DNA of 64,000 nt, from assembly GCA_016217545.1 (NCBI GenBank), contig JACRHT010000012.1, forward strand, positions 496,001 to 560,000. The letters are read 5' to 3'. Source of the DNA: Opitutia bacterium (GTDB lineage: Bacteria > Verrucomicrobiota > Verrucomicrobiia > Opitutales > Opitutaceae). The notes beneath the pieces were generated by a model that saw only the letters and a list, made by a program, of their open reading frames with translations, searched no databases and had not been told where the DNA came from. Position 1 is the stretch's first letter. Every line of letters starts with the position of its first letter. This document shows positions 892 through 55,529 of the stretch, piece by piece. Both the position numbers and the translations under genes were made by a program.

Positions 892-1356
892 AATCGTTCT
901 CGTTCTCCTACTCGTTCTCGTTCTCCACAAGCTCAGAACCGTAGGAACCTGCGTCTTCCCGCACGTCGCCCGAGAAGCGAGCAATCAGCCCCGCCACGAG
1001 GGAGACAACCGCGTGGAGCAGAATCTTGCCCTCGGTCGCCTTGGTGGTGTCCAGGGTCTTTCGAGCGACCAAGACATCCAAGCACGCGGCGCACTCGACC
1101 GCCGATCCTCGGGCGATGTCGAGGTAGCGGCAGCGATCCAGGTGCGAGCGCTTGCCGTTACCCTCGGCAATATTGAGCACGATGCTGGTCGACGCTCGGT
1201 CCAGCTGATCCCGCGCGGCCAGCTTGGCCGGGAGCGACGCGAGAACCGGTTCGCACCACGCCGCAAACTTCACGGCTTCTTGGTAGGCCCGGAGTTTTTC
1301 GTGGTCGAAGGTGGGGGGCATCGAGAACGAGAAAGAGAACGAGGAACGAGAACGAT
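892..1356. mobile_element. Inverted-repeat element (family C) carrying a four-helix-bundle gene
   Basis: The left end, AATCGTTCTCGTTCTC from 892, is answered by the inverted array ending GAACGAGAACGAT at 1356. Both ends are made of degenerate copies of a short GTTCTC / GAGAAC unit. The element fills almost the whole gap between the miaB stop codon (1356-1358) and the start of the downstream membrane-protein gene (887), and encloses one complete gene (908-1321). Shorter relatives with the same ends but no gene lie at 34410-34527 and 42609-42691. Calling it mobile is an inference from the repeated ends; no transposase or target-site duplication is seen. Confidence 0.6.
908..1321 (-). CDS. Four-helix-bundle protein of the 23S rRNA intervening-sequence (S23) family
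   Basis: A 137-residue helical protein beginning MPPTFDHEKLRAYQEAV, with the family hallmarks KLRAYQ near the N-terminus, LDRASTSIVLNIAEGNG in the middle and a tyrosine-arginine rich helix after it. The fold is the small antiparallel bundle found in proteins encoded in 23S rRNA intervening sequences, structurally related to Avd of diversity-generating retroelements; the biochemical role is unknown. The ATG at 1321 is chosen because the 22 residues upstream merely translate the repeat. The last residues, ELVENENE, are encoded by the other arm, so the element and gene are physically merged. It is not a ribosomal protein despite the old S23 label. Confidence 0.85.
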   Translation of the reverse strand: MPPTFDHEKLRAYQEAVKFAAWCEPVLASLPAKLAARDQLDRASTSIVLNIAEGNGKRSHLDRCRYLDIARGSAVECAACLDVLVARKTLDTTKATEGKILLHAVVSLVAGLIARFSGDVREDAGSYGSELVENENE

Positions 1357-2717
1357 CAGGACGGGACGCCCGCCAGCTCCAACTCACCGTAAAGCACGGC
1401 CGTGGATACGCGGTTGATTTTCACCGGGACCAGTTCGCCGATCAGGCGTTCGTGCGCCGGGAAATGCACGATGCGGTTGCCGCGCGTGCGGCCCATGAAT
1501 TGCACGCCCTTCTTGTCCGGGCCTTCGACGAGGACTTCCTGCGTCGTGCCGAGGAGCGTGGCGTTGCGGCGGTCAGAGTTTTGCTCAAGCAGGCGCAAAA
1601 GGATCTGATTCCGCTCCTCCTTCACCTCGTCCGGAATCTGGTCGCCCATGTCGGCGGCGGGTGTGCCGGAACGGACGGAGTATTTGAAGACGTAGGCCAT
1701 GTCGTAGTTGCAGGCCTCGAAGAGCGCGCGCGTCTGCTCGAAGTCCTCCGCGGTCTCGCCGGGGAAGCCGACGATGATGTCCGTCGAGAAATACATGTCG
1801 GGCCGCACGCGGCGCAGGTCGTCGACGATCTGCTTGTAGCGGTCGCGCGAGTAGGGCCGGTTCATCAGCCGCAGGATGCGGTCGCTGCCACTCTGCATCG
1901 GCAGGTGGACGTATTCGCAGAGTTTCTCGAGGCGGCCGTAGGCAGCGACGAGGTCGTCCTTGAAGCCGCGTGGGTGCGGTGAGGTGAAGCGGATGCGGCG
2001 GAGGCCGGGGATGGCGTTCACGCGTTCGAGCAATTGCACAAACGGGCTGATACCGCCCGTGTGCTCGTAGTCGCGTCGGCCGTAACTCGTCACGATCTGG
2101 CCGAGGAGCGTGATCTCACGCACGCCGCGGTCAGCGAGTTCCTCGCACTCGCGCACGATCTCGTCCATCGGCCGCGAGCGTTCGTCGCCGCGGGTCTTCG
2201 GGACGATGCAGAACGCGCAATCCATGTTGCAGCCCTGCTGAATCGAGACGAACGCCGTGACCTGCCGGTCCTCGAGGACGTGTTCGCGAATGGTGTTTTG
2301 CGAACCGGCTTCCTCGGCGATGTCGACGATGCGCGTGGGCAACACGGCACCCGCAGCCTGCGCGGCGCGGAGATTGTCGAGGTGGTCGGGGACTTGGTGA
2401 AATTTCTGCGTGCCGACGATCAGGTCGACGTCCGGCAGCGCATCGAGCAGCGCAGCGCCGCGGTTTTGCGCCATGCAGCCGAGGATGCCGATCACGAAGC
2501 GCGGGTTGCGCTTCTTCTTCTGCGCGAGGTAGCCGGCTTTGCCGATCGCCTTTTGCTCGGCCATGTCGCGGACGCTGCAGGTGTTGAGCAGCATCACGTC
2601 GGCGCTGTCCTCGTCTGCTACGATCCGGTAGCCCCGCGCGCGCAGCATCGCCGCGACAGCCTCGCTGTCGCGCTCGTTCATCTGGCAGCCATAGGTCTTG
2701 ATGAAGACTCGGTTCAT
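1356..2717 (-). CDS. miaB: tRNA-2-methylthio-N6-dimethylallyladenosine synthase
   Basis: Radical-SAM methylthiotransferase that adds a methylthio group to i6A37 of tRNAs. The N-terminal UPF0004 domain has its three cluster cysteines at about C11 (TYGCQMNERDSE), C47 and C81; the radical-SAM triad CNMDCAFC has C163, C167 and C170. A TRAM-like segment ends the protein. The 453-residue length is normal. The open frame extends far upstream, but MNRVFIKTYGCQ is the canonical MiaB start, so ATG 2717 was chosen. The stop codon abuts the four-helix-bundle element. The divergent lytic transglycosylase gene starts 114 bp away. Confidence 0.95.
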   Translation of the reverse strand: MNRVFIKTYGCQMNERDSEAVAAMLRARGYRIVADEDSADVMLLNTCSVRDMAEQKAIGKAGYLAQKKKRNPRFVIGILGCMAQNRGAALLDALPDVDLIVGTQKFHQVPDHLDNLRAAQAAGAVLPTRIVDIAEEAGSQNTIREHVLEDRQVTAFVSIQQGCNMDCAFCIVPKTRGDERSRPMDEIVRECEELADRGVREITLLGQIVTSYGRRDYEHTGGISPFVQLLERVNAIPGLRRIRFTSPHPRGFKDDLVAAYGRLEKLCEYVHLPMQSGSDRILRLMNRPYSRDRYKQIVDDLRRVRPDMYFSTDIIVGFPGETAEDFEQTRALFEACNYDMAYVFKYSVRSGTPAADMGDQIPDEVKEERNQILLRLLEQNSDRRNATLLGTTQEVLVEGPDKKGVQFMGRTRGNRIVHFPAHERLIGELVPVKINRVSTAVLYGELELAGVPS

Positions 2718-18112: not shown

Positions 18113-18130
18113 GGGGCGAAGGGGGCGGGG

Positions 18131-18240
18131 ATCTTGATCTTTCCTCTTTCTCCTAATCTTTCTCCTCAAGAGGCACAGCCGGCTGCGTGACCGGACGAGA
18201 GAAAGAGGAAAGAGAAAGATTAAGAGGAAAGAGGCAGCGC
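18131..18240. repeat. Variant of family C inverted repeat
   Basis: Left arm ATCTTTCCTCTTTCTCCTAA then TCTTTCTCC; right arm GAGAAAGAGGAAAGAGAAAG then ATTAAGAGG. The TTCTCCTAnTC core matches the left arm of the family C element at 892, where the units read GTTCTC rather than CTTTCTC. It lies just upstream of the MFS symporter start. Confidence 0.6.
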
Positions 18241-21931: not shown

Positions 21932-22000
21932 GTAGGGCCGGTCTTCAGCCGGCCCGTTTGGATTCTCGCGCTTTTAGGGGCCGGCTGAAGCCGGCCCTAC
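21932..22000. repeat. Family A paired hairpin between TonB receptor and sucrose phosphorylase
   Basis: GTAGGGCCGGTCTTCAGCCG on the left and GGGCCGGCTGAAGCCGGCCC then TAC on the right, a near-perfect long inverted repeat. It sits 1 bp after the TonB receptor stop (22002) and 11 bp before the sucrose phosphorylase start, inside the probable operon. Confidence 0.75.
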
Positions 22001-32955: not shown

Positions 32956-33000
32956 GGCACAAGCGAGCGCTGCGTGCGCCGCGAACGAACTGGTCGTTTA

Positions 33001-33060
33001 ACCACGGATTGCACGGATGAAATGCCACGGCACCGTCGCGCGATCCGTGAAATCCGTGGT
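33001..33060. repeat. ACCACGGATT inverted repeat
   Basis: ACCACGGATTGCACGGAT and ATCCGTGAAATCCGTGGT pair at 17 of 18 positions around a 24-nt spacer. It lies in the gap between the amidase stop and the convergent AmpG-like gene, where it could act as a bidirectional terminator. It resembles short repeats that recur in environmental bacterial genomes; only one copy was found here. Confidence 0.65.
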
Positions 33061-33112
33061 CAAAAGCAGTCTGCGCAGCCGCGACGCCTGTTTGGCTCGC
33101 CAGCGTGACTTC

Positions 33113-34409: not shown

Positions 34410-34527
34410 AATCGTGCTCGTTCTCCTACTCGTTCTCATTCTCATTCTCGTTCTCGCGCCTCGCGTCGCTCGCACCCGGCAAAGCGGAGCCGAGAGAACG
34501 AGAATGAGAATGAGAACGAGAACGATT
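34410..34527. repeat. Family C element without a gene
   Basis: Starts AATCGTGCTCGTTCTCCTAC and ends GAGAATGAGAACGAGAACGA then TT. The arms are arrays of GTTCTC / GAGAAC units with a 50-nt GC-rich centre. It fills the gap between two same-strand genes, 8 bp upstream of the AmpG-like start and 11 bp after the GHL10 stop. Confidence 0.72.
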
Positions 34528-42608: not shown

Positions 42609-42691
42609 AATCGTTCTCGTTCTCTTACTCGTTCTCTCGTGCGGAAGCGCGTTCCGATTGGAGAGAACGAGAAAGAGGGACGAGAACGATT
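42609..42691. repeat. Family C element without a gene (short)
   Basis: Begins AATCGTTCTCGTTCTCTTAC and ends GGGACGAGAACGATT. The ends match those of the gene-carrying copy at 892-1356. It sits between two same-strand genes, 5 bp before the stop of the aminoacyl-tRNA-protein transferase. Confidence 0.75.
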
Positions 42692-55396: not shown

Positions 55397-55433
55397 AGAA
55401 TGACGAAATCGCCTACTCGTGCTGGTGCGTGCG

Positions 55434-55505
55434 GTAGGGCGCGACCGCTGGGCCCGCCGCGAAAGCGGCAACACGTTCTCGGCGCGCCCAGCGGTCGCAC
55501 CCTAC
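55434..55505. repeat. Family A paired hairpin upstream of the NagX-like gene
   Basis: GTAGGGCGCGACCGCTGGGC on the left and GCCCAGCGGTCGCACCCTAC on the right: an 18-bp near-perfect inverted repeat with a GC-rich centre. It lies between the NagX-like start and the NAGPA-domain gene stop. Confidence 0.7.
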
Positions 55506-55529
55506 CCCGAGGCCAGTCACCTTGTCGGT

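Follow-up and report, generated by a model that had tools for sequence, protein, structure and literature searches.

Each S23 element, as these loci are called here, is laid out as one four-helix-bundle gene between inverted arms made of a few degenerate tandem units, which are usually 7 or 8 bp long and are 6 bp long in the element of the window (the whole 64-kb stretch of DNA analysed here, which belongs to a genome of 5.09 Mb, G000). Such elements are very probably mobile DNA, and the one in the window would belong to a widespread group of them; S23 itself is, on balance, probably their dedicated mobility factor, a reading to which we assign a probability of roughly 0.6. Across many phyla, S23 genes show a strong enrichment of inverted arms, the sequence of which goes with the S23 subfamily, between phyla too. 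In plasmids, three insertions of elements with or without the S23 gene have been found, each into a clean empty site and each with 5 bp of the target duplicated. The preliminary description of the window had proposed a mobile element with gene-less satellites, and the shared ends together with the plasmid insertions support this proposal in a wider form than was stated.

The S23 element of the window

The gene-bearing element occupies 466 bp (892-1357), where the S23/IVP gene is flanked by inverted arms of a tandem six-base unit, with protein-coding open reading frames on either side; the outer bases of arm B adjoin the stop codon of the neighbouring gene (Table 1). As the preliminary description had it, the gene fits exactly between the arms, with its start codon (1319-1321) touching arm B and its TAG stop codon (908-910) lying inside arm A, and the last residues of the protein, ENENE, are encoded by arm A together with the stop. 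The ends had also been described as one sequence and its complement, which holds for their recurrence but not for their identity: the arms repeat a hexamer, GTTCTC, and are not alike, since arm B reads GTTCCTCGTTCTCTTTCTC and arm A carries the stop-codon triplet. Because the tail of the protein is encoded by the arm, a switch of the arm from AAC to AAA turns ENENE into EKEKD, which is the protein end seen in the orthologues of G006 and G001 (region 908-923 of the window). With regard to a 23S rRNA context for this element, no Rfam match above gathering scores was found in the 64-kb window.

Table 1. Features of the S23 element and related hairpins in the window, and filled/empty comparisons at plasmid and other sites
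Feature	Position or size	Strand	Target site	Remarks
Arm A	892-925			3'-side end; AATC and GTTCTC hexamers; CTA at 908-910
S23/IVP four-helix-bundle gene	908-1321	-		137 aa
Arm B	1323-1357			5'-side end of element; inverted-repeat score 46
Variant gene-less hairpin	18131-18240			Weaker RNA fold, -38.8 kcal/mol, z -2.4 (18128-18232 folded)
Gene-less hairpin, same family as the window's S23 element	34410-34527			RNA fold -63.4 kcal/mol, z -7.6
Gene-less hairpin, same family as the window's S23 element	42609-42691			RNA fold -52.7 kcal/mol, z -8.9
T. variabilis/Scytonema S23 element	exactly 423 or 409 bp		GTAAT doubled	Exact 5 bp
Nostoc ATCC 53789 pNsp_a S23 element	413 bp		TTCTA doubled, against pNsp_c	Exact 5 bp
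pNsp_c gene-less hairpin, AATTCGC arms	182 bp		TGACC doubled	Exact 5 bp
pNsp_c S23 site B			Not clean	
pC052_A hairpin (L327)			Not clean	
Site C hairpin (ATTTAA-like)			Not clean	
L211 against L216			Not clean	
Picosynechococcus 7003 against 7002			Not clean	
N. edaphicum against Calothrix, nrd site			Not clean	4/5
Brasilonema hairpin at the T. variabilis site			Not clean	Longer, unclear

The protein encoded by this gene matches both PF05635 (E 2.5e-20; 73.1 bits against a cut-off of 33.8) and TIGR02436 (E 2.8e-17; 62.9 bits against a cut-off of 24), and its single-chain AlphaFold2 model is a confident four-helix bundle (pLDDT 88.9). The nearest structures to the model are 2gsc (Z 18.0) and 2rld (Z 17.9), pentameric relatives for each of which 5 chains are listed, followed by Avd of the diversity-generating retroelements at Z 14.6-16.0 (8ub8 16.0, 4dwl 14.8), with unrelated helical bundles reaching Z 14.0, just below Avd. 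The structural relation of S23 to Avd that had been put forward is seen with the window's own protein, and the resemblance of PF05635 to Avd has already been remarked upon (PMC10053308).

Among the invariant columns of the S23 protein alignment, from which rows with a stop in the translation were omitted and several more were dropped for brevity, are the polar or small residues Q39, S46, N50, E53, G54, S73 and E76 (window numbering), which lie in helices 2 and 3. We know of no nuclease or transposase motif and of no catalytic domain in S23. Purifying selection acts on the protein in all the sufficiently diverged pairs compared: dN/dS is 0.06-0.27 among the three orthologues of the genus, with synonymous sites near saturation, and 0.05-0.27 in the 12 diverged pairs among 14 chosen S23 pairs, with synonymous sites near saturation in most (the other two pairs are nearly identical and uninformative). 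One S23 protein (from genome G043) had no match in a phage collection at E 1e-5.

Gene-less hairpins in the window and its genome

Within the window, AATCGTTCTCGTTC occurs 9 times at up to two mismatches, compared with 0.58 expected and with a largest count of 5 in 100 shuffles, and it is found at each of the three gene-less places where recurrence of the element's ends had been reported, one of them as a variant (Table 1). The variant consists of CTTTCTC units and in this resembles the arms that flank the orthologous S23 gene in G006 and G001. Judged by eye, the placement of all copies between a stop and a start codon, as had been described, may hold. A genome-wide search for shared ends, one of the checks that had been proposed, gave 42 exact matches of CGTTCTCGTTCTC in G000 against 0 for the reversed pattern, where overlapping matches in one array are counted repeatedly and one match (L026) has no partner arm.

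From the loci of this search and 20 additional stretches of this genome, 21 gene-less hairpins could be parsed (both arms and a loop of at most 150 bp, with the window's gene-bearing copy excluded), and each has one arm-B-like end (GTTCCTCGTTCTCTTTCTC) and one arm-A-like end. In 17 of the 21, as read by eye, a stop-codon complement (TTA or CTA) is retained in the A-type arm at the position where the S23 gene ends; the loop sequences vary among the copies. Since both ends are shared and the stop triplet is kept, the gene-less copies look like internal-deletion derivatives, and their origin by internal deletion of gene-bearing copies, in line with the derivation that had been suggested for them, is the simplest reading of these sequences. 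The triplet may also have a function of its own within the arm.

The hairpin at 34410-34527 has its orthologue in G007, where the loop is similar, and the remaining aligned relatives, two of them aligned without the right flank, have other hairpins or none. In G000, ATTCTC units are present in both arms of this hairpin, and they are absent from the G007 orthologue, so that the two arms appear to have been corrected to each other in situ. At the orthologous site, REP-like hairpins (GGGGCTTTACGCCCC) were seen by eye in G008 and G004 (L099, L101). Further inverted repeats of unrelated sequence, such as ACCACGGATT and GTAGGGCCGG, lie at 21932-22000, 32997-33064 and 55433-55506 of the window and perhaps represent further repeat families.

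The window's gene is one of six S23 genes in G000, the flanking arms of which are all different; five of the six score at least 34 as inverted repeats and the sixth (L035) does not. Arms of the GGACGGAGGAC type have 11 matches in G000, two of which are the arms of their own S23 gene, against 0 for the control, and they are present in seven relatives too. The AAGCTTT arms of another S23 gene in G000 have only two matches in the genome, one being the gene's own arm, and thus almost no gene-less copies, and the reversed control for AAGCTTT outnumbers the pattern in several relatives.

Inverted arms at S23 genes in many phyla

A broad search for S23 loci was made with an alignment of five S23 proteins as the query. 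An inverted-repeat score of at least 28 in the 300-bp flanks was found at 82 of 109 S23 loci and at 8 of 547 shifted positions. These 109 comprise 32 loci from G000 and its relatives, those beyond the six S23 genes of G000 being the best match in each of the best genomes, and 77 named loci from many phyla, drawn from the best 80 of 589 confirmed stretches, so that neither sample is random; 112 loci were available, L160, L161 and L166 being skipped for short flanks, and L041, L046 and L050 never entered since their contigs end near the gene. When other open reading frames of the same loci served as the control, with 300 bp required on either side, arms were found at 8 of 95 such frames as compared with 78 of 103 S23 genes. 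Of the 109 S23 loci, the 27 below the cut-off are without a clear inverted repeat, some having weak repeats and some none. Isolated single-motif matches were all that six ribosomal RNA motifs gave in the loci examined, with no 23S context.

Where the arms are clear (87 loci), the tandem period that fits best is 7 in 59, 8 in 23, 9 in three, 12 in one and 6 in one, the last being the window's element, and shuffled arms give a flat spread of periods. The stop codon lies in the downstream arm or within 7 bp of it at 43 of the 87 loci and ahead of the arm at 42, which indicates that the tight fit of gene and arm seen in the window is common but not general.

Co-variation of the arms with the S23 protein

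Protein similarity and arm similarity are correlated in a Mantel test on 87 of 120 loci (those scoring at least 28 in 160-bp flanks), with r of 0.24 overall and 0.196 for pairs from different phyla, values reached in 0 of 500 permutations each. For the nearest cross-phylum S23 relative, the arm has a mean rank fraction of 0.37 where 0.5 is expected, and 0.24 in the better half, so the locus-by-locus association between protein and arm across phyla is moderate. On an S23 tree of 86 of the 87 loci (119 columns, with 43 of 83 inner branches open), the period label, which was assigned to 82 loci for periods 7 and 8 only, changes 11 times, compared with a mean of 20.2 and a minimum of 16 on shuffling (0 of 300 shuffles as few).

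Within the genus, the arms of the orthologous S23 genes at this site are built of GTTCTC in G000 and of TTTCTC in G006 and G001, and the dispersed units match the arm unit of the resident S23 element in both G000 and G006. Counted by eye, double units of the CGTT/CGTT and CTTT/CTTT kinds stand at 42:0 in G000 and at 2:23 in G006 (Fisher p 6e-16, with matches treated as independent); the reversed control gave 9 matches in G006 against 29 for the pattern, and 0 in G000. The window's S23 subfamily, at more than 60% identity, is present only in G000, G001 and G006 of the 13 genus genomes, and these three rank first to third in matches per Mb (13.9, 5.3 and 3.6; the fourth has 3.1). Hairpin units of the window's arm family are also held by genomes without its S23 subfamily (16 matches in G007 and 15 in G005), which shows that the tie between arms and S23 is not exclusive.

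Filled and empty sites

Of 12 genus genomes that can be aligned at the site of the window's element, three (G000, G006 and G001) carry it and nine are without it; the 13th genome (G012) has no alignable site. In G007, of which the left flank is 93% identical, and in G004 and G003, a different gene-less hairpin was seen by eye at this site. A comparison of orthologous loci for precise presence or absence had been proposed as a check, and here the polymorphism was found, but exact ends could not be read because the flanks are too diverged. Precise insertion, with 5 bp of the target doubled, has instead been found for S23 elements in cyanobacterial plasmids, which do not belong to the family of the window's element.

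In a family of conjugative plasmids with about 97% identity, an S23 element is present in Trichormus variabilis and in Scytonema NIES-4073, and five plasmid relatives examined, which have a 13-bp spacer, are without it at the T. variabilis site. The two lengths of this element (Table 1) differ by 14 bp, which corresponds to two heptamers of one arm. At the site of the pNsp_a S23 element, plasmid pC052_D of Nostoc C052 has a right copy that reads TTCTG. Besides its gene-less hairpin, pNsp_c also bears an S23 gene flanked by arms that consist of four AATTCGC units (inverted-repeat score 69). An exact 5-bp duplication was found in three of ten filled/empty comparisons, and the rest are degraded or ambiguous. 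In the plasmid family of N. carneum, for which eight insertions were listed, the ends of the S23 element pair best (score 37, the next being 29). Of 13 insertions between Nostoc plasmids, six rows have paired ends (score at least 26), where one site B element accounts for two rows and site A, present in two plasmids, for another two. At chromosomal hairpins the duplication signal is weak, with a best z of 2.9 among 16 offsets (15 of 39 hairpins with usable ends).

Two further loci were noted in these comparisons. A plasmid of Nostoc C052 (L198) carries a truncated S23 relic, without the right arm, at the T. variabilis insertion site. In addition, an S23 gene lies between cas10 and a Cmr3 gene (type III-B CRISPR) on a plasmid of Picosynechococcus PCC 7003 (L192) and is absent there in PCC 7002; an S23 protein that forms part of the type III-B CRISPR system was considered and rejected, given that the PCC 7002 operon is without S23 at that place. 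A 23S rRNA IVP is named in a figure legend of a published CRISPR screen (PMC10910872).

Alternative explanations

Staggered DNA transposition leaves a short constant duplication, and the duplications of the plasmid elements are of this kind. They would also be expected if the arms were those of miniature inverted-repeat elements (MITEs) on which an ordinary transposase from another locus acts in trans, with S23 as a passenger that has another job, and the movement of gene-less copies such as the pNsp_c hairpin, as well as the lack of any S23 catalytic domain known to us, would fit such a cargo. Set against this, the arms vary with the S23 subfamily and follow the protein across phyla, which is not what a shared transposase would give, so we regard a passenger role as unlikely, though it has the best claim among the alternatives; the loci were collected via S23, and the comparison of cargo thus covers S23 loci only.

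It is less probable still that a resident reverse transcriptase copies a hairpin transcript into DNA with S23 acting in the manner of Avd, a route for which the fold shared with Avd of the diversity-generating retroelement ribonucleoprotein (8ub8 and 4dwl), the very stable hairpin RNA and the reverse transcriptases annotated on some of the compared plasmids can be cited. The insertions are two-ended with a 5-bp duplication, which speaks against such copying, and the RVT_1 profile has no match in G000 and matches in only three of the 13 genus genomes; the reverse-transcriptase route is therefore disfavoured in the window's genome, and was rejected there in the form that relies on a resident enzyme.

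Movement of REP-like hairpins by Y1 (RAYT) transposases, with S23 unrelated to it, is very improbable. There are 10 Y1 matches in G000, all outside the 64-kb window, and matches in 12 of the 13 genus genomes, and REP-like hairpins occur at the site orthologous to 34410, as noted above. Y1 transposition is not known to leave a target-site duplication, yet 5-bp duplications were found in plasmid members, and the arms co-vary with S23; the first of these weakens the case for Y1 transposases, and with the second led to its rejection. Finally, static regulatory hairpins (terminators or RNase III sites) formed where they now stand, with S23 as an RNA-binding partner, which would agree with the position between genes, the strong RNA folds and the concerted change of arms in place, are hardly credible in view of the clean filled and empty sites in plasmids about 97% identical and within one strain, and are refuted for the three plasmid insertions.

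A possible mechanism

For the mobile S23 elements, we propose that a ring of S23 would bind arms that belong to its family, in DNA form and possibly as a hairpin, and bring the two ends together, and that S23 would then recruit a partner for the staggered cut and joining or carry these out itself. Gene-less copies that keep the arms would be moved in trans. The arms may turn over by slippage and arm-to-arm copying, and by these processes S23 and its arms would change together, as has been proposed for RAYT transposases and REPINs. The preliminary description had envisaged a role for this protein family in moving DNA or RNA hairpins; we infer such a role from association and arm co-variation, which bear out the link to the arms and leave the activity itself as a proposal.

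Relation to known systems

An intervening sequence (IVS) of about 430 bp in Coxiella burnetii has been described with an S23 open reading frame, inverted ends and a variable number of tandem heptamers upstream of the frame; IVSs are cut out by RNase III, and the S23 protein of Xanthomonas has a pentameric structure (PMC4990558). The same article cites older proposals that IVSs are mobile or are remnants of transposition (Burgin 1990; Ralph and McClelland 1993). The preliminary description had expected a role of S23 in mobility to be new, and this expectation stands only in part, the idea of IVS mobility being older (PMC4990558). The 23S rRNA IVS and the window's element have in common an S23 frame between inverted ends with short tandem repeats. 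They differ in that the IVS resides in rRNA and is excised by RNase III, whereas the S23 elements described here lie between protein genes, have gene-less copies and make target duplications. The 23S rRNA IVSs, with their S23 gene and heptamers, are probably one branch of S23 elements, and since such IVSs have already been described, the present finding extends a known kind of element.

The S23 elements are also like REPINs and their RAYT genes in that intergenic hairpins with many gene-less copies are found, each family being tied to one resident gene with which co-evolution has been proposed (PMC3116915). RAYT, however, is a Y1-type transposase encoded beside the REPINs, whereas here a four-helix-bundle gene lies inside the hairpin, and insertion of S23 elements yields a 5-bp duplication, as seen for plasmid members and not for the family found in the window. 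With MITEs and insertion sequences they share short inverted-repeat architecture, internally deleted copies and, in three of the ten comparisons, a target duplication of exact length, and differ from them in being without a recognised transposase and in having terminal tandem arrays that vary by locus. Avd of the diversity-generating retroelements has the same fold as S23, in contrast to which the window's genome is without an RVT_1 match.

Dispersed tandem heptamers (GGGAATC, GGGGATT) have been described in Xanthomonas and Nostoc, where they are mostly intergenic and, in Xanthomonas, often form inverted pairs; they are reported to have generally no association with mobile elements (PMC4692102). 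An S23 protein is present in Xanthomonas (2gsc), and these heptamer repeats may be linked to S23. Among the matches listed in a search of open-licence PubMed Central, without preprints and so weak evidence in this respect, no title or opening of an abstract presented S23 genes as a general mobile family.

Implications

What is known is the IVS with S23 and heptamers, and what would be new is that S23 represents a novel type of transposition protein, a reading that we hold tentatively and at somewhat less than even odds. According to this reading, S23 would be the core transposition protein of a previously unrecognised class of transposable elements, a four-helix-bundle ring without a known transposase fold that recognises rapidly changing tandem-repeat ends and mobilises copies with or without the gene, duplicating 5 bp of the target; the class would span Patescibacteria, Bacteroidota, cyanobacteria and an archaeon, and would explain the rRNA IVSs and many of the dispersed heptamer repeats that have long puzzled students of bacterial genomes.

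The S23/IVP family is widespread and annotated without a function, and it is here given a testable role, by which the old question of the nature of IVSs becomes directly testable and a possible cause is offered for dispersed heptamer repeats. An S23 gene inside a CRISPR operon or another operon may have been inserted there and need not belong to the system in question. Should S23 move DNA, it would represent a novel type of mobility protein, the fast-changing ends of which are legible in the sequence.
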